Of a stretch of DNA of 64,000 bases, positions 7,535 to 58,459 are shown piece after piece. This DNA comes from Gemmatimonadaceae bacterium (lineage in GTDB: Bacteria > Gemmatimonadota > Gemmatimonadetes > Gemmatimonadales > Gemmatimonadaceae): contig JABAQJ010000002.1 in the NCBI GenBank assembly GCA_019186945.1, forward strand, positions 585,897 through 649,896. The letters are read 5' to 3'. The position numbers and the translations under genes are program-made. The notes beneath the pieces were generated by a model. The model did no database searches and was not told where the DNA came from. It worked only from the letters and a program-made list of their open reading frames with translations. How positions within the stretch are numbered: position 1 is the stretch's first letter; every line of letters begins with the position of its first letter.

Positions 7535-8713
7535 CTAGTTGAACGCGTTGAGGCCCGTGATTGCCTGCCCAAGTATCAGCGAATGCACGTCATGCGTCCC
7601 CTCGTACGTGTACACGCTCTCCAGGTTCGCCATGTGGCGCATGGACGCGTATTCGGCCAGTATCCCGACCGCACCCAGCAAACGTCGCGACTCCCGGGCA
7701 ATCTCCGTGGCCATGTCCACGTTGTTCCGCTTCGCCAGCGAGACCTGCTGAGGCGTATAGGTACCGGCATCCTTCATTCGTCCCAGATGCAGCGACACGA
7801 GCTGCGCCTTCACGATCTCCGTCAGCATGTCCGCGAGGCGTCCTTGTTGTAGCTGGAACCCAGCGATCGGCTTGTCGAACATCACCCGGTTCTTCCCATA
7901 GGCCACGGCTTCCTCGAAGCACGCCATCGCCGCCCCGATCGCGCCCCAGCTGATCCCGTACCGGGCCTGCGTCAGGCACATGAGGGGCGACTTCAGCCCA
8001 CCGCTCCCTGGCAGCAATGCGTCCGCCGGCAGCTCGACGTTGTCGAACACCAGTTCGCTCGTGTCCGAGGCGCGCAACGAGAGTTTTCCTTTCTGATCGC
8101 GCGCCGTGAAACCCTTCGCATTCGTCGGTACGATGAACCCGCGAATCGAGCTCGCATCCTTGTCTCCGCCAGTCTTCGCCCATACGACCGCGATCTGTGC
8201 AGTCGACCCGTTCGTGATCCACATCTTGGCACCATTCAACACCCAGCGGCCATCCGCCTGTGGCATGGCCATCGTCAGCATCCCCGCGGGATTCGAACCG
8301 AAGTCCGGCTCCGTCAGGCCAAAGCAACCGATCACCTCGCCTTTCGCCATCTTCGGCAACCACGTCCGCTTCTGCTCCTCCGATCCAAACGCGTAGATCG
8401 GATACATCGCCAGCGCCCCCTGCACGGACGCGAACGATCGAATGCCTGAGTCCCCCCGCTCGAGTTCCTGCATGATGAGGCCATACGCGACGTTGTTTAG
8501 GCCCGCGCAGCCATAAGCCTCTGGAAGGTTCGCGCCAAGGACGCCCAACTCACCCATGCCGGGGATCAATTCCTTCGGAAAGCGTCCCTCCACGTAGCAC
8601 TTCCCAATTATCGGGAGCACCTTGTCGTTCACCCACGCACGGATACTCTCGCGTACCGCGCGTTCTTCCTCCGACAGCACGCTGTCGATATTGTAGAAAT
8701 CGTGGATCGTCAT
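7535..8713 (-). CDS. gcdH: Acyl-CoA dehydrogenase, glutaryl-CoA dehydrogenase type
   Basis: A 392-residue flavin dehydrogenase that oxidises an acyl-CoA and hands electrons to ETF. FAD/substrate motifs are present: CFGLTEPDFGSNPAGM and the W-I-T-N-G loop (MWITNGSTAQIAVVWAK). The C-terminal stretch YTYEGTHDVHSLILGQAITGLNAF carries the catalytic Glu in the glutaryl-CoA dehydrogenase context YEGTHD. RYGISWGAIGAAMACFE also favours that group over short-chain dehydrogenases. The start ATG at 8713 gives the normal family length; longer readings upstream are not protein-like for this family. Its stop abuts the LpxR-like start. It probably feeds the EtfBA/EtfD pathway at 2.2-6.2 kb. Substrate (glutaryl-CoA or another acyl-CoA) is inferred. 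Confidence 0.88.
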   Translation of the reverse strand: MTIHDFYNIDSVLSEEERAVRESIRAWVNDKVLPIIGKCYVEGRFPKELIPGMGELGVLGANLPEAYGCAGLNNVAYGLIMQELERGDSGIRSFASVQGALAMYPIYAFGSEEQKRTWLPKMAKGEVIGCFGLTEPDFGSNPAGMLTMAMPQADGRWVLNGAKMWITNGSTAQIAVVWAKTGGDKDASSIRGFIVPTNAKGFTARDQKGKLSLRASDTSELVFDNVELPADALLPGSGGLKSPLMCLTQARYGISWGAIGAAMACFEEAVAYGKNRVMFDKPIAGFQLQQGRLADMLTEIVKAQLVSLHLGRMKDAGTYTPQQVSLAKRNNVDMATEIARESRRLLGAVGILAEYASMRHMANLESVYTYEGTHDVHSLILGQAITGLNAFN

Positions 8714-8742
8714 AGGGGCAAAAGATACCCTGACGGAGCCGG

Positions 8743-9093
8743 CTATGGGCTCCCATCCCCCGCTCGTCGATTTCCGAGCCACGACCCCAGCCAGGCAGCA
8801 CTCCCGGCGAGCACGGCGGGGAATGCTATCGTGAGCCCGATCAACACGCTCGCGGGGACTCCCATGGCCCCGCCCAGTCGACGGGCCAGCGTGTCGACGG
8901 GCAGTCCGGAAATCCGATAGACAACGAGAATCCCGCCCCATGCCAGAGCGGCACCGACCGCCGCAACGAGGCCAGGTGTACGACCGCGACCGAGGATGAG
9001 GCCTCCACCAGCCGCCACTAACGGAACGCTCCACCAGCCGAGCAGAACCGTGCCGAGCGCAATCGCCAGCGCAAACAGGAGAATTCGTGCCAT
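8743..9093 (-). CDS. Small integral membrane protein
   Basis: A 116-residue protein of almost entirely hydrophobic segments, probably four membrane helices, with short Arg-containing loops (LGRGRTPG and ARRLGG). It starts with an ATG 8 bases after the penicillin acylase stop and ends 29 bases before gcdH, so it belongs to the same transcript. I recognise no conserved motif and assign no function. Composition matches its neighbours. Confidence 0.7.
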   Translation of the reverse strand: MARILLFALAIALGTVLLGWWSVPLVAAGGGLILGRGRTPGLVAAVGAALAWGGILVVYRISGLPVDTLARRLGGAMGVPASVLIGLTIAFPAVLAGSAAWLGSWLGNRRAGDGSP

Positions 9094-9101
9094 GACGAAC
9101 G

Positions 9102-11579
9102 CTACATCCGGGGCGCGGGTCGGAGAGTGAGCGTCGCCCGTGTCTTCGCGACTGACAGATCGCTGGGCGTCCTCGGCACGAAGAGCGTATCCAGTGCTCC
9201 ATCGCGCCAGAGCGCGAGTCGATCCGTATATCGAGCGCTCGCCGGATTACCGCTTTGGCCCCCGGGATAGGTGCCGAAGGCACTGATCGTATCCCCGAGT
9301 TCGACTACCATCCGCCAGCTCGAACCAAAGCCGTTTCCGCCGGACGGATTGAGCGTACCCGGTCCTCCCTGTATCGGGACTCCTGTCTCGGAGAAACCGG
9401 GCAGCCGCAGGATGTGGTATACGCTCGCAGCGCCGCGTTCGGACCAGCGCCAGCGGCCAGCTGACGGAGGCCCGAACTGGGCCGACAGGGAGTCCCACGC
9501 AATCCTCAGGCTGGCGGCCACTACCGCGTCACGTTGCTCGGCTGTATCGGGTGTTGCTCGGCGATCCCACCACGAACTGGCAGAGTCCTTCAACAGAACC
9601 AGCAGGACGGCCTCACTGGGGGTGGAAAACGGACGTCCGGTGGAGTCGTTGAGTTCGTCCCACGCGATTCGTCCTAGCGTCCGCATCGAGCGCTCGAACA
9701 ACACTGCCGCATCCTGCGTCTGTACATATCGCCGGTCCCATGACGCGAGAAGCGCATGCGCACTGTCGAGCGGCACATCGCTCGCGTTTCGCTGGCTGGC
9801 GGCCGCGTTCAGGAAAAACGGGACGAACAATTCTGCGCGCATGCTCCTGGGATCGGTCTGGTACTCCCGCATCCGAGTCAGAGTCACGGACGAGTCCTCG
9901 CGCAGGAGCCGGTTGATGTTCAGCGCACGCCAAGGATCGAAGCTCCGATCCGTCCCCAGGTACGGTGCGCCGACTTTCGGGTCGATGGGTTCCTGGTTGG
10001 CCGATGCCAGAAAGCCCTGCACTGGCTCGAATGACTGCGGGTATCGCTCGACCGGCCAGTAGCCTCGCCAATCGTTGGAGCTGTAGCGCCCGTCGCGCAC
10101 GACCGTGCCGTTTCCATCGTCCGGACGCAAGGGGAAGTAGCCGGTTGAGCGTATGGCGATGGTGCCGTTACGGTCTGCCACGATCATGTTCTGCGCGGGC
10201 ACCGCATAATGCGCAGCCATGCTGTCCAGGAATGCACGTGCCGTAATGGCGTGAGCAGCGGCCTGGAATCCGGAGAGTTCCAAGTGTCCGTCGAATGCTG
10301 TCCAGCGCATAGACGTGGCCTGTCCATTCCAGCGGCTGATCGGTCCCCGGTGCGTGTAGCGGATGGTATCGACGCCGAGAACCTCGCCTTTCGGACCACT
10401 GTACGTCTCGATTCGGCTTTCCAGCGGTCGCCACTCGCCATCGAGTCGATAGTGCGTCGGGTTCTCGGGATCGTTCAGCGTTTCCCGGTAGAAATCGATG
10501 ACGTCGGCGCCTGTGTTGGTGAATGACCAGGCGACGTCGCGCGTGAAACCGATGATGATGCCGGGCAGCCCGGGGATCGTGACGCCATATGCGTCAAACT
10601 TGCCTGGCACGACGATGTGCGCTTCATACCATATACTCGGCAGCGTGAGCTGCAGGTGCGGATCGCCGGCCAGCAGCGCGTGGCCGGAGGCCGACCGCGC
10701 TGGCGACACCGCCCAGTTGTTACTGGCGAAGGTGCGCCGTTCGGAGCCACCGATGAGGGCAGGGAGGTCGGGGAGAGCGGCCGCTACGCCGGCCGCCAGC
10801 GTGTCCGGGCTGCCTGGTGGCGGCAGCGCCGCCAGATCGAACCTCGGTCCCGAAAGACCGTTCGGCTGGATCGGTTCCTGGATGGGCGTGTGGACCGGAA
10901 AGAGCGCCCGCGCCGCGGGAGCGCCCACCATCGACTGAGCACGCAGCATCGTGCGCTCGTCGAAAAAGTAGGTCAGCGTATAGCTCATGCGGCCGAACAG
11001 ATAAAGCGAGTTGATCGGGCGCCAGAGCTCCGGTCGGCGCTTGAGGAGCCGGTATTCGACCGGCCACTCGTCAGGAGTGAGATCGCCGACATACGCGTTG
11101 ACGCCATCTGCGTAGGCAGCCAATAGACGCGCCGTCTCGCTGGCTGGATCCATCGATGCGGCAAGCCGCTCGGCGGCATACGGAAGACCGATACGCCGCG
11201 TTTCCTGGTCCAGTCGCAAGGCTGGCTGGCCGGCCCACTCGGTGAGTCGTCCGGACGCCGCATGTGTCTGCGCGTCGAGCTGGAAGAGGCGATCCCTCGC
11301 GACCACGTAGCCAAGAGCACGAATCGCGTCTTCCTCTGTGGCAGCAAAGATGTGCGGCACGCCACGACGATCGTACCTGACGTCCACAGAAGACGCGAGC
11401 CCTGGGATGTCGCCGGACGCCTTGTTGGGGAACTCGGCGTAGCGGGTGGAGGCCCAGGCACCGTGTACCGGGTCGAGCAGCGGTCCGAGCGGGGGAACCG
11501 GGGGAATCCCACGGAAACCCAGCCAGAGCCCTCCGCCCAATGCGACGCCCGAAAGCGCAACAACCGCTGGTCTTGTCAT
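9102..11579 (-). CDS. Penicillin acylase family N-terminal-nucleophile hydrolase
   Basis: An 825-residue member of peptidase family S45, which cleaves amide bonds such as acyl-homoserine lactones, acyl-amino acids or beta-lactam side chains. An N-terminal hydrophobic segment (VVALSGVALGGGLWLGF) gives export or anchoring. The alpha-chain region shows VRYDRRGVPHIFAATEEDA and GYVVARDRLFQLD. The autocatalytic site is SNNWAVSP, whose Ser becomes the N-terminal nucleophile of the beta chain after removal of the spacer. LAGDPHLQLTLPSIWYEAH follows, as in the family. The ATG at 11579 lies 20 bases after the SprT-like gene's stop; a longer reading would overlap that gene. Natural substrate unknown; quorum-signal acylase activity is one possibility only. 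Confidence 0.88.
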   Translation of the reverse strand: MTRPAVVALSGVALGGGLWLGFRGIPPVPPLGPLLDPVHGAWASTRYAEFPNKASGDIPGLASSVDVRYDRRGVPHIFAATEEDAIRALGYVVARDRLFQLDAQTHAASGRLTEWAGQPALRLDQETRRIGLPYAAERLAASMDPASETARLLAAYADGVNAYVGDLTPDEWPVEYRLLKRRPELWRPINSLYLFGRMSYTLTYFFDERTMLRAQSMVGAPAARALFPVHTPIQEPIQPNGLSGPRFDLAALPPPGSPDTLAAGVAAALPDLPALIGGSERRTFASNNWAVSPARSASGHALLAGDPHLQLTLPSIWYEAHIVVPGKFDAYGVTIPGLPGIIIGFTRDVAWSFTNTGADVIDFYRETLNDPENPTHYRLDGEWRPLESRIETYSGPKGEVLGVDTIRYTHRGPISRWNGQATSMRWTAFDGHLELSGFQAAAHAITARAFLDSMAAHYAVPAQNMIVADRNGTIAIRSTGYFPLRPDDGNGTVVRDGRYSSNDWRGYWPVERYPQSFEPVQGFLASANQEPIDPKVGAPYLGTDRSFDPWRALNINRLLREDSSVTLTRMREYQTDPRSMRAELFVPFFLNAAASQRNASDVPLDSAHALLASWDRRYVQTQDAAVLFERSMRTLGRIAWDELNDSTGRPFSTPSEAVLLVLLKDSASSWWDRRATPDTAEQRDAVVAASLRIAWDSLSAQFGPPSAGRWRWSERGAASVYHILRLPGFSETGVPIQGGPGTLNPSGGNGFGSSWRMVVELGDTISAFGTYPGGQSGNPASARYTDRLALWRDGALDTLFVPRTPSDLSVAKTRATLTLRPAPRM

Positions 11580-50008: not shown

Positions 50009-50998
50009 TCAGCGTGTGGCCGGAAGCGTGGCGGCGACAGTGCTGGCTCGCGAACGCCACGTTACCAGCCAGTACGCGATCATCAGGCCGATCGCGGCAC
50101 GCACCCAAGCCACCGCTTGACTCGGGCCAGCATACGCCTCGACCAGCGGCGGAGCAGCGTACCAGTAGTACAGACCAAGCGACGTCGCACCGAGGAACGG
50201 CAGGGAAAGCGACGCGCGCAGCCGGAAGACCGCGACCAGCACGGCTACGATGAGGTAACTGGCGGCGGCAAGGAGCAGGACGCGACCGTACACCGTGCCA
50301 GCCGTCACGAAGTCGCCATTCACCGTGGTGAAGTAGCCGATAATGAACCCGGGGAAGGCCGCAGCGAATGCTCCGAACCCGGTGCGAACCCAGCGCGCAT
50401 CGCGGCGCTCGGGGCCAATGGTCTGGGCAACCGTCTTGCTGTTCGCCAAGTCGATGCAGCCGACGGGGGTGCACTGCGAGCAGCTGGTGCACCGCGCGCC
50501 GTCCATCGGCAGGAGGGGCAACTGGCCGTACAGCTTCTCCACGGGCAGGACTGGACACAGACTTCCGCAGAAGCCCGCGCGGCGCGCATAGCGCAGGCCG
50601 CTGACGAGGGCAAGGAGCGCCACGAGTAGAATCGTGATGGCGAGCGCCGGACCGTTCTCGTTGAAGAGGAAGCGGCGAGCCGGCACCAGCACCGCCAGCA
50701 GTACGATGCCGACGACCCAAGCCGCCCGCAGCAGACGCGTCTCGACGATCCGCTGTCCGACACGACTGCCGGACAGGTCGTTGAGGGTTGCCAACGGACA
50801 GACGTTGCGCCAGATGAGCGGATTGATCAGAAACGTCGCAGGCAGCAGCGGTATCACCATGTCCCACAGGATGTGCAACGTGACCGTGGGGGTCACCCAG
50901 AGCGCCGCGATCAGCACGACCGTAAGCACCAGACCAATGGCCTGAGCTGCTCGCCAGAGCGATTGGCCGCGCACGGCGGGCATTGCGATCGAAGTCAA
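50009..50998 (-). CDS. Membrane-bound 4Fe-4S protein, NosR/NapH-like
   Basis: A 329-residue inner-membrane protein with six to eight hydrophobic segments. Two Cys-rich motifs face the same side: AGFCGSLCPVLPVEKLYGQ and ARCTSCSQCTPVGCIDL, the second an atypical ferredoxin motif. A third Cys motif (NVCPLATLN) lies near the N-terminus. This matches NapH/NosR-type quinol-side electron donors. The terminal acceptor is not encoded in the window. On its own transcript; convergent with the fasciclin gene. Confidence 0.75.
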   Translation of the reverse strand: MTSIAMPAVRGQSLWRAAQAIGLVLTVVLIAALWVTPTVTLHILWDMVIPLLPATFLINPLIWRNVCPLATLNDLSGSRVGQRIVETRLLRAAWVVGIVLLAVLVPARRFLFNENGPALAITILLVALLALVSGLRYARRAGFCGSLCPVLPVEKLYGQLPLLPMDGARCTSCSQCTPVGCIDLANSKTVAQTIGPERRDARWVRTGFGAFAAAFPGFIIGYFTTVNGDFVTAGTVYGRVLLLAAASYLIVAVLVAVFRLRASLSLPFLGATSLGLYYWYAAPPLVEAYAGPSQAVAWVRAAIGLMIAYWLVTWRSRASTVAATLPATR

Positions 50999-54199: not shown

Positions 54200-55723
54200 T
54201 TACGCGCCGAAGCGGTCTCGCTGAGCAAGCTGCCAGAACTCCTCGGCCCTTGCCGGCGTCCATCCCTCGGGGTCGTGAAGCCCCGCGAGTGCTGCATGGA
54301 GTTCGGATGCCGTCTGGATGCGCTGCTCCGGGTCGCGGGCGAGGCAGCGGCCGAGCAGGCTGGCGAAGGCCCGGTCCACGACGTCTTCGCCCGGTACGCT
54401 CAGTACGAGCGCACTCGCTGCCTCGTGCATCTGCTGAATCTGACCCCACGACATCCCATCGAAAGGTGTGGTTCCCGTGAGCAGGAAGTGAAGCGTCACG
54501 CCAAGCGCGTACACATCGCTCCGCTCGTCGGCTTCCCCTCCGCGCCACAGCTCGGGGGCGAGGAATGCCGGCGTCCCAACCATGGTCCCGGTCCACGTCA
54601 AGCGCGCGCTACGCTCTGGCCCCGGGGTTCGCAGCCGGGCGATGCCGAAATCCAGCAGCTTCAACGTCTCCGGCTCGGACACCGAATGCGTCAGGTAGAG
54701 GTTCTGCGGCTTGAGATCACGATGGATTACACCGGCTGAGTGCGCTTCCTCGAGCGCAAGGCAGGCCTGGATGCCGAGGTGGATGACACGCTGCAGGGGA
54801 AGCGGGCCATACCGATCCACCAGGTTGGCCAAGTTCATCCCCGAGAGGTATTCCATCGCGATGAAGTAGAGCCCGTCCTCGCTAGCGCCGAAGTCGAAGA
54901 TCTGGACGACATGTGGACCGCGCAGCCTGCCGGCCGCCTGCGCTTCCAGTTCAAACCTGCGTACGGATTCGGGGCTCGATGCGTCGCCGACCCGAAGGAT
55001 CTTGAGCGCGACGTTCCGGTGCAGCGATTGATCCCAAGCCAGCCAGACCTCGCCCATGCCACCCCTGCCGATCGGTGCCTGCAGGCGATATCTGCCGACA
55101 CGCCGCGCACGAAAGAGCTGCTCGCGAGCGCTCCACACGATGTGGCCCGTCACCATGCCAATGACCGACGAGGCAAGAACGAAGATGTAGTTGCTCGCGA
55201 ACTCTATGAGGGACGGCGCGGTCAGCCATGCCGCTCGCGCTGACGGAGACACGAATGCGACGAACGCGATTACGACGGGGAATGCGAGGGCAATGCGCGC
55301 ATACGTGTTCCGGCCCTGCCGCCAGTGCGTCGGCACGAGCGTGGCTCGCACCAATGCAACGACGGAAATGCCGTGCAGGTAAGCGCTGTGAATGCCCCCG
55401 AGTTCGATGGCCATAACGGCGATAGCCAGCGCGGCCAGACTGTAACACATGTTCTGGAGCCAGAAGAGCATCTTCAACTCCAGCTTCCCGCGCAGGCTGG
55501 CGCGATACACACCGAGGAACACAAGTTCGACGACGATGCGATAGACCAGGAGCCGCGAGAACGACGCGTTCGGATAGGCAACGAAGCACATGAACGCGTC
55601 CAGAACCACGAAGGACGGCCAGAGCCACATTCCGGCCTTCATCGCCCGCGCCACAGTGCGGCGACCAGCGATTGCGTCGCCTTCTGACGTTGGCGTTTCG
55701 ATAACTAGCGTGGCGGTCGTCAT
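54200..55723 (-). CDS. Membrane Ser/Thr protein kinase with N-terminal membrane domain
   Basis: A 507-residue kinase. Residues ~30-205 contain five or six hydrophobic segments. The kinase domain follows (residues ~212-490): glycine loop APIGRGGMGEVWLAWD, lysine in NVALKILR, catalytic HRDLKPQNLYLT, DFGIARLR and the APELWRGGEADERSDVYALG segment. The order (membrane part first, kinase last) is opposite to the common PknB layout. No extracellular PASTA repeats occur. Its TAA stop is followed by a CACTCTGACCC repeat. Confidence 0.9.
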   Translation of the reverse strand: MTTATLVIETPTSEGDAIAGRRTVARAMKAGMWLWPSFVVLDAFMCFVAYPNASFSRLLVYRIVVELVFLGVYRASLRGKLELKMLFWLQNMCYSLAALAIAVMAIELGGIHSAYLHGISVVALVRATLVPTHWRQGRNTYARIALAFPVVIAFVAFVSPSARAAWLTAPSLIEFASNYIFVLASSVIGMVTGHIVWSAREQLFRARRVGRYRLQAPIGRGGMGEVWLAWDQSLHRNVALKILRVGDASSPESVRRFELEAQAAGRLRGPHVVQIFDFGASEDGLYFIAMEYLSGMNLANLVDRYGPLPLQRVIHLGIQACLALEEAHSAGVIHRDLKPQNLYLTHSVSEPETLKLLDFGIARLRTPGPERSARLTWTGTMVGTPAFLAPELWRGGEADERSDVYALGVTLHFLLTGTTPFDGMSWGQIQQMHEAASALVLSVPGEDVVDRAFASLLGRCLARDPEQRIQTASELHAALAGLHDPEGWTPARAEEFWQLAQRDRFGA

Positions 55724-55849: not shown

Positions 55850-57955
55850 CTAGAAGCGCACTCCCGCCGTGATGAACAGGCTGCGGCCGGGCAGCACGAA
55901 GTACCTGACGGTCCCGGAACTGGACACTGACCCACTCGCGTACCCCTGGCTGTCTCCCAGATTCGTCCCGCGCAACACGAGCGAATAGCGCCATGCGGTC
56001 AAACGTGCCGAACCGTCCAGCACGTACACAGCCGGCAGCACCCTCGCCGCGTCCCCGGTGTTGTCCAGGTGCGAGCGACCCTGGTACCGACCCTCGACTC
56101 CCAGCGCCAGGAACGGGGCCAGCGTGAGTTCGGCGCGATGCACAGTCATAACGGATGGCGTGAGCATTGGCGGCACGTTCCTGCGAACGACAACGGGATC
56201 GACTGTCGAATCGTCGAAGGCTTCAATCCGGTTCCGGCTCAGCCACGCGTTGGCGCCGAGGGACAGTCGCGGGACGGGGCGCCAGGTCGCGTCGAATTCG
56301 ATGCCGTGGCGGAACGCCGCGCCCACGTTGCGCCGCGGTATCAGACCGGAGGCGGTAGGCGCGCCAATGCGTTCGATCGAGTTTCGGAAATCCATGCGGT
56401 AGACGTTGGCCTGCAGCTCCAGCGCGGGCCGCGAGAGCGTGACGCCCAGTTCCGCGTCGCGAACCGATTCCGGTCGGACGCGCGAGAGATCGCCGATCGC
56501 GTCCACGTTCCCGCGGTTCATGTCGTCGTCGCCAGCGAACAAGTCGCTGCGCGCCGGCTCGCGCGTGGCGGCGCCGTATGACGCGTAGGCGCTGAGGCCA
56601 GTGCCTAGGCGTACCGTCACTCCGCCCTTGGGGTTGAAGAAAGCCCATGACGTAGCACGGCCACTGACGCCCGCGAACGGATCCGGCTGATAACGAAAGC
56701 GGGCGTGACGGGCCTGGACGTCTGCGAACCAGTGTACTCGTCCATCGTCGTACGAAGCCTTCGCGAATGCGCTCACATCGTCCTTGTGGCCCACATTGCG
56801 GTACAGTGCGGCCGGGTCGGGACGCAGCCACGCGCGATGTGCCCGCTCGTATGTGTTGGCGTTCACTCCCAGGCTGAACTGCCATCTGCCGCGGGTGCTG
56901 TTGAGAGCGCCGGTGGTGCCGTACCACGCGTGTTCGAGGTTGTAGCGGTACTTGTCGTCGCCGGCGAAATAGTCGTAGTTCCCGCCGGCGGAATTGCGAT
57001 ACAGAGTGGTGCTGAAGGACGTCGAGGGACTGGCCAGGCGCGTGACCGACAGCGCCAGCATCTGCTGGCCGAAGTGATCCCGTTCGTCCGGCGACAGCGG
57101 ATTGAACCGACGGTTCTGCCGCAGCTCGGCGACGGTCGCTCCAACATAGGACAATGTGTCCCACAGCTCGCCCAACATCGCCGTCAGCTTCACGATGTTA
57201 CGGTCGCCGAACCAGCCGGCACCGACGAGCGCCGACCCCCCCGCCACCCCAGAATGATCCCGATAGCCATTCGTGCGCAGGGCCCCGCCTCTCACCTGGA
57301 CGGCAAAGCGGTCGTTCACCGATGCGCGGTATGCGCCACTCACCCGTTGCGCGCCGTAGGAGCCGAATTGCAGCTGCAAGTCCCCCCCCGACTCAAGTCT
57401 GGCCAACGGCATGCTTTCGAAATTGATCGACCCGGCAAACGACGCTGTTCCGGCAGTACTCGTGCCGACACCTCGTTGAATCTGGACGGACTGCACGCCG
57501 GACATCATGTCGGCGAAATTCGCGAAGTACAGAACCTGGTCCTCCATGTCGTTGAGTGGCACGCCGTCCAGAGTGATGTTGATTCGCGTCTGGTCGATAC
57601 CTCGCAGCCGCAGGTAGCTGTAGCCCCAGTTCGTGCCGGTTTCAGTATGCGCGGTTAGCGCCGGCGCGGCATTCGCGAGCAGGAGTGGAACGTCCTGACC
57701 GAACTGGCGGGCCGCGAGGACTGATCGCTCGACCGTCGTCTGCGAGACAGGAGCCAGATTCGACGCCCTGATGGCCGTGATGAGGATCCGCTCGACTTGC
57801 AGCGCTGTGTCCGCCTGTGCTTTCGTGGAATCCCCCGCCTGGGCGACCAGCGCTGCCGGCATGAACAGCGACAGAACAAGGGCCGCCCGTACACGAAGGA
57901 TCGATGGAAACGCGTGCGGATGCGGGCGCGCGGGCGCCTTGGGACCGAATGACAT
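55850..57955 (-). CDS. TonB-dependent outer-membrane receptor under thiamine (TPP) riboswitch control
   Basis: A 701-residue receptor. A signal peptide (ALVLSLFMPAALVAQ) is followed by a plug domain from about residue 55 (VERILITAIRAS, LRLRGIDQTRINITLDGVPLND, VQIQRGVGTSTAGTASFAGSINF) and a 22-strand barrel ending in an aromatic Phe (ITAGVRF), as required for outer-membrane assembly. The riboswitch directly upstream argues that the substrate is thiamine or a precursor. An eight-G run (57382-57389) interrupts a Gly-Gly near residue 188. Confidence 0.92.
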   Translation of the reverse strand: MSFGPKAPARPHPHAFPSILRVRAALVLSLFMPAALVAQAGDSTKAQADTALQVERILITAIRASNLAPVSQTTVERSVLAARQFGQDVPLLLANAAPALTAHTETGTNWGYSYLRLRGIDQTRINITLDGVPLNDMEDQVLYFANFADMMSGVQSVQIQRGVGTSTAGTASFAGSINFESMPLARLESGGDLQLQFGSYGAQRVSGAYRASVNDRFAVQVRGGALRTNGYRDHSGVAGGSALVGAGWFGDRNIVKLTAMLGELWDTLSYVGATVAELRQNRRFNPLSPDERDHFGQQMLALSVTRLASPSTSFSTTLYRNSAGGNYDYFAGDDKYRYNLEHAWYGTTGALNSTRGRWQFSLGVNANTYERAHRAWLRPDPAALYRNVGHKDDVSAFAKASYDDGRVHWFADVQARHARFRYQPDPFAGVSGRATSWAFFNPKGGVTVRLGTGLSAYASYGAATREPARSDLFAGDDDMNRGNVDAIGDLSRVRPESVRDAELGVTLSRPALELQANVYRMDFRNSIERIGAPTASGLIPRRNVGAAFRHGIEFDATWRPVPRLSLGANAWLSRNRIEAFDDSTVDPVVVRRNVPPMLTPSVMTVHRAELTLAPFLALGVEGRYQGRSHLDNTGDAARVLPAVYVLDGSARLTAWRYSLVLRGTNLGDSQGYASGSVSSSGTVRYFVLPGRSLFITAGVRF

Positions 57956-57960
57956 TGTCT

Positions 57961-58043
57961 GGACTCCCTACGCCGGTACGAACCGGATCAGGTTCAGCGG
58001 GTCTCTCTCAGCCAGCGCGCACTCGCGGCGCAGGCACCCCGGT
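57961..58043 (-). promoter_or_regulatory. TPP riboswitch (THI element)
   Basis: On the minus strand the conserved THI-box blocks appear in order: CGGGGTGC (around 58034-58041), CTGAGA (58006-58011), GACCC, then CTGAACCTGATCCGG, TACCGG and CGTAGGGA. Only about 12 bases separate the last block from the receptor ATG. The purine-rich CGTAGGGAG could be the ribosome site, so TPP binding probably blocks translation. Confidence 0.92.
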
Positions 58044-58264
58044 CATGTTTCCTCAGGATAACGACTCGCCGGCACTGGCGCACCTGTGAACGTCGACCGT
58101 CAGCGGTTACCAATGCGGAGGACGTGTGCAGGCTGTGGCATAGGTGTAGGCGATACGCTTACGGCAAGACAACGTTTCCCCGGCTATTCTACGAGGAGCA
58201 GGCGTGCATCCTGATGATGCGAAGAACCCGGCACGAGCCGCCGGCACAATCGCGGGAGGCGCGA

Positions 58265-58459
58265 ATGACTCGCAATCTCGGTCCGATCGATCGTGCAGTC
58301 CGTGTTTTGCTGGGCATCGGACTGCTCACCTTCGCCCTCGCGGGCGAGGCGACGGCGTGGTGGGGATGGTTCGGGATCGTACCGCTGGCAACAGGGATCG
58401 TCGGCTACTGTCCGCTGTACCGCCTGTTGCATCTATCGACGGCTCGCAAGGCGACCTGA
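58265..58459 (+). CDS. DUF2892 small membrane protein
   Basis: A 64-residue protein with two helices: GPIDRAVRVLLGIGLLTFALAG and GIVPLATGIVGYCPLYRLL. The N-terminal 'N-x-G-x-x-D-R-x-x-R' and the late GYCPLY are the DUF2892 signature, also seen at the C-terminus of YgaP rhodaneses. The single Cys may carry sulfur. GGAGG lies ~7 bases upstream of the ATG at 58265. It is 34 bases ahead of the CBS protein. Confidence 0.88.
   Translation: MTRNLGPIDRAVRVLLGIGLLTFALAGEATAWWGWFGIVPLATGIVGYCPLYRLLHLSTARKAT

Follow-up and report, generated by a model that had tools for sequence, protein, structure and literature searches.

A TPP riboswitch-linked TonB-dependent receptor as the predicted gate for thiamine in a gemmatimonad bacterium

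Introduction

TonB-dependent thiamine receptors controlled by thiamine pyrophosphate (TPP) riboswitches are already known in kind. The closest known system is OMthi-PnuT-Tnr3 of Bacteroides thetaiotaomicron (BT2390 and BT2396-2397), which serves thiamine uptake; a biosynthesis mutant of that species needs more thiamine once either of the two transporters is deleted (PMC5613172). Predicted thiamin TonB-dependent transporters co-localised with PnuT are listed in PMC2771747, and the Pnu transporters for thiamine, riboflavin and nicotinamide riboside have been told apart by their riboswitches (PMC7749635), which is the logic that we follow here. Thiamine biosynthesis is much less prevalent in Gemmatimonadales than in its sister order (PMC10469786). 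We analysed a 64,000-nucleotide stretch (hereafter the window) of contig JABAQJ010000002.1 from a Gemmatimonadaceae bacterium (GCA_019186945.1), in which an earlier note, made from the letters alone, had placed a TPP riboswitch in front of a TonB-dependent receptor gene. In the literature as partly available to us, we found no report of a NadR-like thiamine kinase, of a TPP-controlled receptor in gemmatimonads, or of an exchange between receptor and thiC across Gemmatimonadota.

The gemmatimonad system shares with OMthi-PnuT-Tnr3 the riboswitch on the receptor gene, seen here and in 39 of 41 orthologues, and a Pnu-type inner-membrane transporter, encoded in the bacterium's own genome and in 40 of the 41 genomes with the receptor. 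It differs in that the receptor and Pnu genes are unlinked in its own genome, and in that the TPK/Tnr3 family (PF04263) occurs in none of 99 genomes of the order, a stand-alone NadR-like kinase and ThiL standing in its place; moreover, B. thetaiotaomicron possesses thiamine biosynthesis, which the gemmatimonad host appears to lack. BT2390 and the window receptor are likened here by riboswitch, receptor type and Pnu partner. The second system for comparison is nicotinamide riboside uptake by PnuC and NadR, in which transporter and kinase share their folds with those seen here and are likewise paired. Here, however, the kinase is devoid of the nicotinamide mononucleotide (NMN) adenylyltransferase domain and tracks thiamine genes rather than NadA, and Acidobacteriota have TPP-riboswitch operons that contain both Pnu and the kinase.

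Results

A TPP riboswitch directly precedes the receptor gene

The sole Rfam match above gathering score in the whole window (cmscan) is a TPP riboswitch, RF00059, lying directly upstream of the receptor gene (Table 1). The match runs over the full model, positions 1-105, at 66.1 bits against a gathering score of 54.3, and the aptamer core is present with both CTGAGA and GAACCTGA...CCGGCGTAGGGA. It is the only RF00059 match in the bacterium's own genome, and same-strand matches recur upstream of 39 of the 41 receptor orthologues of the order, which together make it more than a chance match. The covariance-model search that the earlier note had proposed thus bears out its reading of the element; its location was right, and its outer limit of 58043 stops 8 nt before the aptamer begins (58051). 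Compared with the family, the window aptamer is without the P3a stem, and it carries a Shine-Dalgarno sequence within itself, with no separate expression platform visible.

The consensus 3' strand of P1 ends 4 nt ahead of the receptor ATG. The putative Shine-Dalgarno AGGGAG is invariant in 30 aligned receptor leaders. In G005 it was not found at the expected place, and this leader counts as a miss in the tally of start codons below. No terminator-like site was detected within 57800-58350. Given this absence and the position of the Shine-Dalgarno sequence inside the aptamer, bound TPP should block translation directly; the layout supports the translational control that had been predicted, the simplest mechanism being that the aptamer, once TPP is bound, masks the ribosome site. 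Across the order, the first in-frame start codon lies 4-9 nt past AGGGAG in 20 of 39 receptor leaders (17 ATG, 3 GTG), the chance expectation being ~6% per leader, or 1.3% for ATG alone, with relatedness ignored. A single mechanism for all leaders was nonetheless rejected, since only these 20 fit and about a dozen first in-frame starts are at least 44 nt away from AGGGAG; lineages with distant start codons may use a different expression platform. We also discarded an additional hairpin platform past the start codon: some early coding regions contain GC-rich repeats, but these are not conserved as structure, and single-sequence folding gave no support for such a hairpin. The riboswitch almost certainly controls the receptor, TPP binding and the direction of control being what we infer from sequence and layout.

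The host lacks ThiC and ThiE but retains ThiL

The completeness of the bacterium's own genome is given as 100. We found no match in it to ThiC (PF01964), ThiE (TIGR00693), TPK (PF04263) or ThiK (TIGR02721), and for ThiG only a 26-bit partial match, which is no true ThiG. ThiL, by contrast, is present (228 bits, over cut-off), on a contig other than that of the window. Across the order, not one of the 99 genomes has a TPK or ThiK match over cut-off; the PF04263 profile finds matches in 7 of 14 control genomes. The bacterium is therefore predicted to be a thiamine auxotroph. Retention of ThiL, without ThiC, ThiE or a true ThiG, implies a need for intact thiamine or thiamine monophosphate (TMP), and one or the other is very probably the receptor's ligand, as judged from searches for ThiC, ThiE and ThiG. 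The bacterium appears to take up the complete thiamine skeleton, unless a THI4, THI5, YjbQ or ThiN route fills the gaps. The substrate had been put down as thiamine or a precursor: the thiamine side of this holds, while a precursor such as hydroxymethylpyrimidine (HMP) or thiazole has become far less likely than the intact compounds. With TPK and ThiK missing, activation must end at ThiL, which means that TMP must be either made or imported. NadA is present as well (389 bits), as it is in 36 of the 41 receptor genomes, so that NAD does not depend on imported nicotinamide riboside.

Receptor and thiC alternate across the order

We compared the 99 genomes of the order, calling the receptor family at >300 bits. 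It is found in 41 of them, and one more (G050) carries a further fragment at a contig end. The 91 TPP riboswitches of the set comprise 39 before receptors, 46 before thiC and six others. Among these six, one lies ahead of the G050 fragment, thiM-type salvage genes follow four (G008, G021, G023, G049; gene names by reading of the sequences) and one is in G065. The last of these, at 67.9 bits, stands before an alcohol dehydrogenase-like gene, an unusual target (L244, 746-871 and 908-1972). The salvage operons led by TPP riboswitches in receptor genomes have the composition thiM-tenA or thiM-thiE-thiD-tenA (L246 4033-5584, L247, L245 876-4020).

ThiC occurs in 51 genomes, and the two families are almost mutually exclusive: two genomes have both (G012, G036), 39 the receptor only, 49 ThiC only and nine neither (Fisher p 1.8e-16; this and the other co-occurrence p-values take no account of the relatedness of the genomes). 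In relatives that do not have the receptor, the TPP riboswitch is mostly on thiC. The alternation is visible within genera: the receptor is in G001 and G034 and thiC in G057 (genus 2), the receptor in G013 and thiC in G041 (genus 14), and the receptor in G078, G090 and G096 and thiC in G077 (genus 48), while in genera 5 and 13 a genome with both stands beside one with thiC alone. These contrasts point to repeated exchange of receptor and thiC, with the riboswitch on whichever gene is present.

A Pnu transporter and a linked NadR-like kinase accompany the receptor

The earlier note was correct that the window holds no thi gene and no inner-membrane transporter near the receptor. Both exist elsewhere in the genome, beyond what the window alone could reveal: a PnuC/PnuT-type transporter (PF04973) and ThiL are on contigs C5 and C6, respectively, and the Pnu gene on C5 overlaps that of a NadR-like kinase (L097, 7546-6959 and 7010-6393). 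Transporters of the PnuC/PnuT fold are known for unphosphorylated vitamins. PF04973 is found in 52 of the 99 genomes and in 40 of the 41 with the receptor. In 29 of 40 Pnu loci examined, from 40 of those 52 genomes, Pnu is followed on the same strand by a P-loop kinase of one cluster, usually overlapping or a few bases apart (in G053, a small predicted open reading frame lies between them). With a profile built from these 29 kinases and a threshold of at least 100 bits, the kinase is present in 45 genomes, namely 38 of the 41 with the receptor and 7 of the 58 without. It adjoins the receptor instead of Pnu in G014, G042 and G030, and G036 has an unbroken series that runs from the riboswitch through receptor and Pnu to the kinase. 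The gene order Pnu, kinase, receptor, in one operon, was observed in G033 and G056 (L100, L254). Two receptor genomes of genus g24 have no full kinase match (31 bits in G023, none in G049); both have a second TPP riboswitch on thiM-tenA together with a ThiE match, which would supply TMP in another way.

The kinase is a stand-alone NadR-like P-loop kinase (PF13521) and not a NadR: it matches TIGR01526 only over positions 159-318 of 325, at 82.5 bits against a cut-off of 341.15. Its structural model (mean predicted local distance difference test, pLDDT, 94.2) is closest to NadR 8x7f (template modelling score, TM, 0.85), which fits a shared fold and does not settle the substrate. In the kinase tree, 39 stand-alone kinases, including those of three Acidobacteriota TPP-riboswitch operons, are set apart from 11 NadR domains (support 87/96). 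At position 109 (numbering of the bacterium's own kinase), all 39 kinases have Tyr and all 10 aligned NadR domains have Trp, the divergent NadR of G019 (C25) having been dropped; we rejected this position as diagnostic because solved NadRs, by our reading of the alignments, carry Phe or Tyr there. On PF04973 membership and genomic context, the PnuT-type transporter likely serves thiamine. For the supply of TMP by synthesis, the kinase linked to Pnu stands out as the candidate, and on balance we favour it as a thiamine kinase.

Relatives beyond the phylum

We scored the best 80 named receptor loci, several of which come from genomes already in the comparison set of the order, with a riboswitch regular expression that recovered 39 of 40 leaders in calibration. 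Two loci (L171, L187) had too little upstream DNA and were left out. A TPP riboswitch lies upstream in 72 of the 78 scorable loci, 68 by regular expression and four more by Rfam; none was found at L192 and L193 (the G033 and G056 receptors), L206, L212, L219 and L220. Three Acidobacteriota loci place the kinase in one operon after riboswitch, receptor and PnuT. In L231 and L233 riboswitch, receptor, Pnu and kinase succeed each other closely, either overlapping or separated by a few bases; in L227 (Vicinamibacterales) Pnu and kinase form a single 373-residue reading frame (8106-9227), a natural transporter-kinase fusion.

In the four Bacteroidota loci (L206 2634-6234, L212 5932-9520, L220 5893-9484, L219) the receptor lies close to a PnuC-type gene and a full-length NadR, and the first three also have a NAMPT-like gene, so named by reading of the sequence. 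Their predicted TonB-dependent receptors very likely belong to a nicotinamide riboside version of the module; the one paper that a literature search returned on this subject concerns lipoprotein P4 of H. ducreyi. The receptor tree contains four groups, corresponding to Gemmatimonadota, Acidobacteriota, TPP-linked Bacteroidota and NAD-linked Bacteroidota. In the Pnu tree, the Acidobacteriota carriers of TPP operons fall among the gemmatimonad ones and the NAD-linked carriers apart, in an order that the bootstrap leaves unsettled.

Two further observations concern these loci. In Cytophagales (L232 5641-8874, L236 5668-8843, L235) a TPP riboswitch and receptor are followed by an NMT1/THI5-like periplasmic-type protein, which perhaps helps to take up a pyrimidine precursor. 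L204, a contig assigned to a Candidatus Kuenenia stuttgartiensis metagenome-assembled genome, bears the gemmatimonad receptor (62% identity), Pnu and kinase, and is probably mis-binned.

The receptor protein and its neighbours

The protein has the plug and the beta-barrel of a TonB-dependent receptor, both Pfam domains scoring over cut-off and the AlphaFold model (input of 36 window and named-relative sequences) being a barrel with a plug. Mean pLDDT is 87.1, with the first 41 residues poorly modelled. Its closest solved fold is that of PqqU/YncD (9c4o; TM 0.80/0.84), the Escherichia coli TonB-dependent transporter of the cofactor pyrroloquinoline quinone, although identity is 17% and the cofactor is a different one. 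Family models do not reveal the ligand, as the earlier note had anticipated, because no NCBIfam receptor model reaches its cut-off on the 701 residues; the best matches below cut-off are heme receptor families (50.4 versus 323.75 bits). The receptor's named relatives, filed under Gemmatimonadaceae and Gemmatimonas, reach 65% identity and place the organism within Gemmatimonadota. Taking its riboswitch and genomic context together, we predict the receptor to be an importer of thiamine or thiamine phosphate.

Table 1. Coordinates of the receptor, its leader and the transporter (window positions unless a contig is named)
Feature	Position	Strand	Evidence or remark
TPP riboswitch aptamer (THI element, RF00059)	57948..58051	-	66.1 bits, gathering 54.3, E 9e-11
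P1 3' strand of aptamer	57960..57964	-	Rfam structure line; only 3 standard pairs in this sequence
AGGGAG, probable Shine-Dalgarno	57964..57969	-	P4 3' strand, junction and first P1 pair; read directly against Rfam structure line
Receptor ATG start codon	57953..57955	-	8 nt after AGGGAG
TonB-dependent receptor, 701 aa, ATG start	55850..57955	-	PF07715 39.4 bits, PF00593 73.3 bits, both over cut-off
Plug domain, residues 68-175	57431..57754	-	PF07715
Beta-barrel part matched by Pfam, residues 290-666	55958..57088	-	PF00593
PnuC/PnuT-type transporter (PF04973), own genome	C5:179792-180328		190 bits

Downstream of the receptor by 126 bp, on the same strand, is a membrane-type Ser/Thr protein kinase (54200-55723, minus strand), possibly co-transcribed with it and with no thiamine link seen. 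A 329-aa protein further on (50009-50998, minus strand) has cysteine motifs like those of a polyferredoxin membrane protein and no Pfam match at E 0.001.

Discussion

We propose that this gemmatimonad, a predicted thiamine auxotroph, salvages thiamine and that the receptor serves as the gate in its outer membrane. When TPP is scarce, the aptamer would be loose, ribosomes would reach AGGGAG and the receptor would be made; when TPP is plentiful, the aptamer would close and hide AGGGAG, acting as an OFF switch at translation. Powered by TonB, the receptor would import thiamine (or TMP) as far as the periplasm, the PnuT-type transporter would carry thiamine across the inner membrane, the NadR-like kinase would trap it by conversion to TMP, and ThiL would make TPP, feeding back on the riboswitch. 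We regard this scheme as a whole, from riboswitch-controlled receptor to ThiL, as probable. Riboswitch, receptor, leader layout, gene content, co-occurrence and gene neighbourhoods are observed; ligand, transporter specificity and kinase specificity are what these observations suggest.

Several results weigh against parts of the scheme. Regarding the aptamer, covariation across the 30 leaders is mixed: the score is 0.133 versus 0.071 for shuffled alignments (0 of 500 shuffles as high), P4/P5 is invariable, and 127 of 500 shuffles reach the same level of double-change pairs; folded by itself, the leader has a minimum-energy structure that differs from the aptamer and is no better than shuffles (z 1.38). 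The G033 and G056 receptors showed no riboswitch in three Rfam scans of their loci. Regarding transporter and kinase, the bacterium's own Pnu-kinase pair lies on a different contig from the receptor and is not preceded by a TPP riboswitch; NCBIfam calls the transporter PnuC (TIGR01528, 86.6 bits, cut-off 42.45) and family models liken the kinase to NadR. In genus g4 (G003, G035, G058) the receptor comes with a riboswitch, but Pnu is divergent and the only kinase match is of NadR type, full-length in the two genomes inspected (G003, G058). G010, which is 78% complete, has no kinase match, and four ThiC-positive genomes have one (G002, G041, G051, G093), with a full NadR in G002. Finally, the four Bacteroidota loci without riboswitch indicate that a receptor-Pnu-kinase module can serve nicotinamide riboside, and the transporter or kinase could serve both vitamins.

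These points feed the most serious alternative, that the receptor imports thiamine while Pnu and kinase are an ordinary PnuC and ribosylnicotinamide kinase, with another carrier and an unrecognised kinase handling thiamine. The names given by family models, the missing riboswitch at the own pair and the Bacteroidota receptors beside PnuC-type genes and full NadR, three of them also beside a NAMPT-like gene, speak for it. Yet Pnu and kinase track the presence of the receptor and the absence of ThiC and not the absence of NadA: among the 99 genomes, p is 1.5e-13 for Pnu and 1e-12 for the kinase against ThiC, and 0.1 and 0.098, respectively, against NadA. Furthermore, the kinase-only proteins, those of the Acidobacteriota TPP operons among them, separate from the NadR domains in the tree, and two genomes (G009, G051) hold the stand-alone kinase alongside a full-length NadR. 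We therefore consider this explanation unlikely, though it deserves to be taken seriously.

A second possibility is that the receptor imports TMP directly and ThiL completes the pathway, so that no thiamine kinase is needed. Retention of ThiL without TPK or ThiK agrees with this, but the linked kinase would be left unexplained, and the PnuC/PnuT-type carrier, found in 40 of the 41 receptor genomes, has a fold associated with unphosphorylated vitamins; for PnuT, PMC7749635 gives thiamine. We judge it quite improbable. Less probable still is a ligand that is a thiamine precursor (HMP, aminopyrimidine or thiazole) finished by salvage enzymes. Four receptor genomes (G008, G021, G023, G049) do have a TPP-controlled thiM with thiE, thiD or tenA nearby, and the NMT1/THI5-like gene after riboswitch and receptor in Cytophagales, named by reading of its sequence, would suit such a ligand; the bacterium's own genome, however, has, in searches that covered ThiC, ThiE and ThiG, neither of the first two and only the partial ThiG match. 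That the receptor carries an unrelated ligand such as heme or a siderophore, the riboswitch being there for another reason, is very improbable, since the heme-family matches that suggest it score far under cut-off, the closest fold is a cofactor transporter and the receptor co-occurs with thiamine genes.

Returning to the salvage scheme, we lean towards the view that the stand-alone NadR-like kinases found with PnuT-type transporters in Gemmatimonadota and Acidobacteriota are an unrecognised thiamine kinase family, which together with ThiL would replace TPK, and that one receptor-Pnu-kinase architecture is used for thiamine and, in Bacteroidota with full-length NadR, for nicotinamide riboside. 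The comparison with relatives points to the recruitment, for vitamin B1, of a kinase family that is known from the salvage of vitamin B3. Soil and freshwater communities are shaped by the exchange of thiamine. PMC10469786, in the parts available to us, is silent on how gemmatimonads without thiamine synthesis live; the system described here would give them a concrete, regulated uptake route. It also names a candidate for the missing kinase, which automatic annotation would label as nicotinamide riboside metabolism. If this is true, vitamin B1 auxotrophy calls and PnuC/NadR annotations would change in several phyla.
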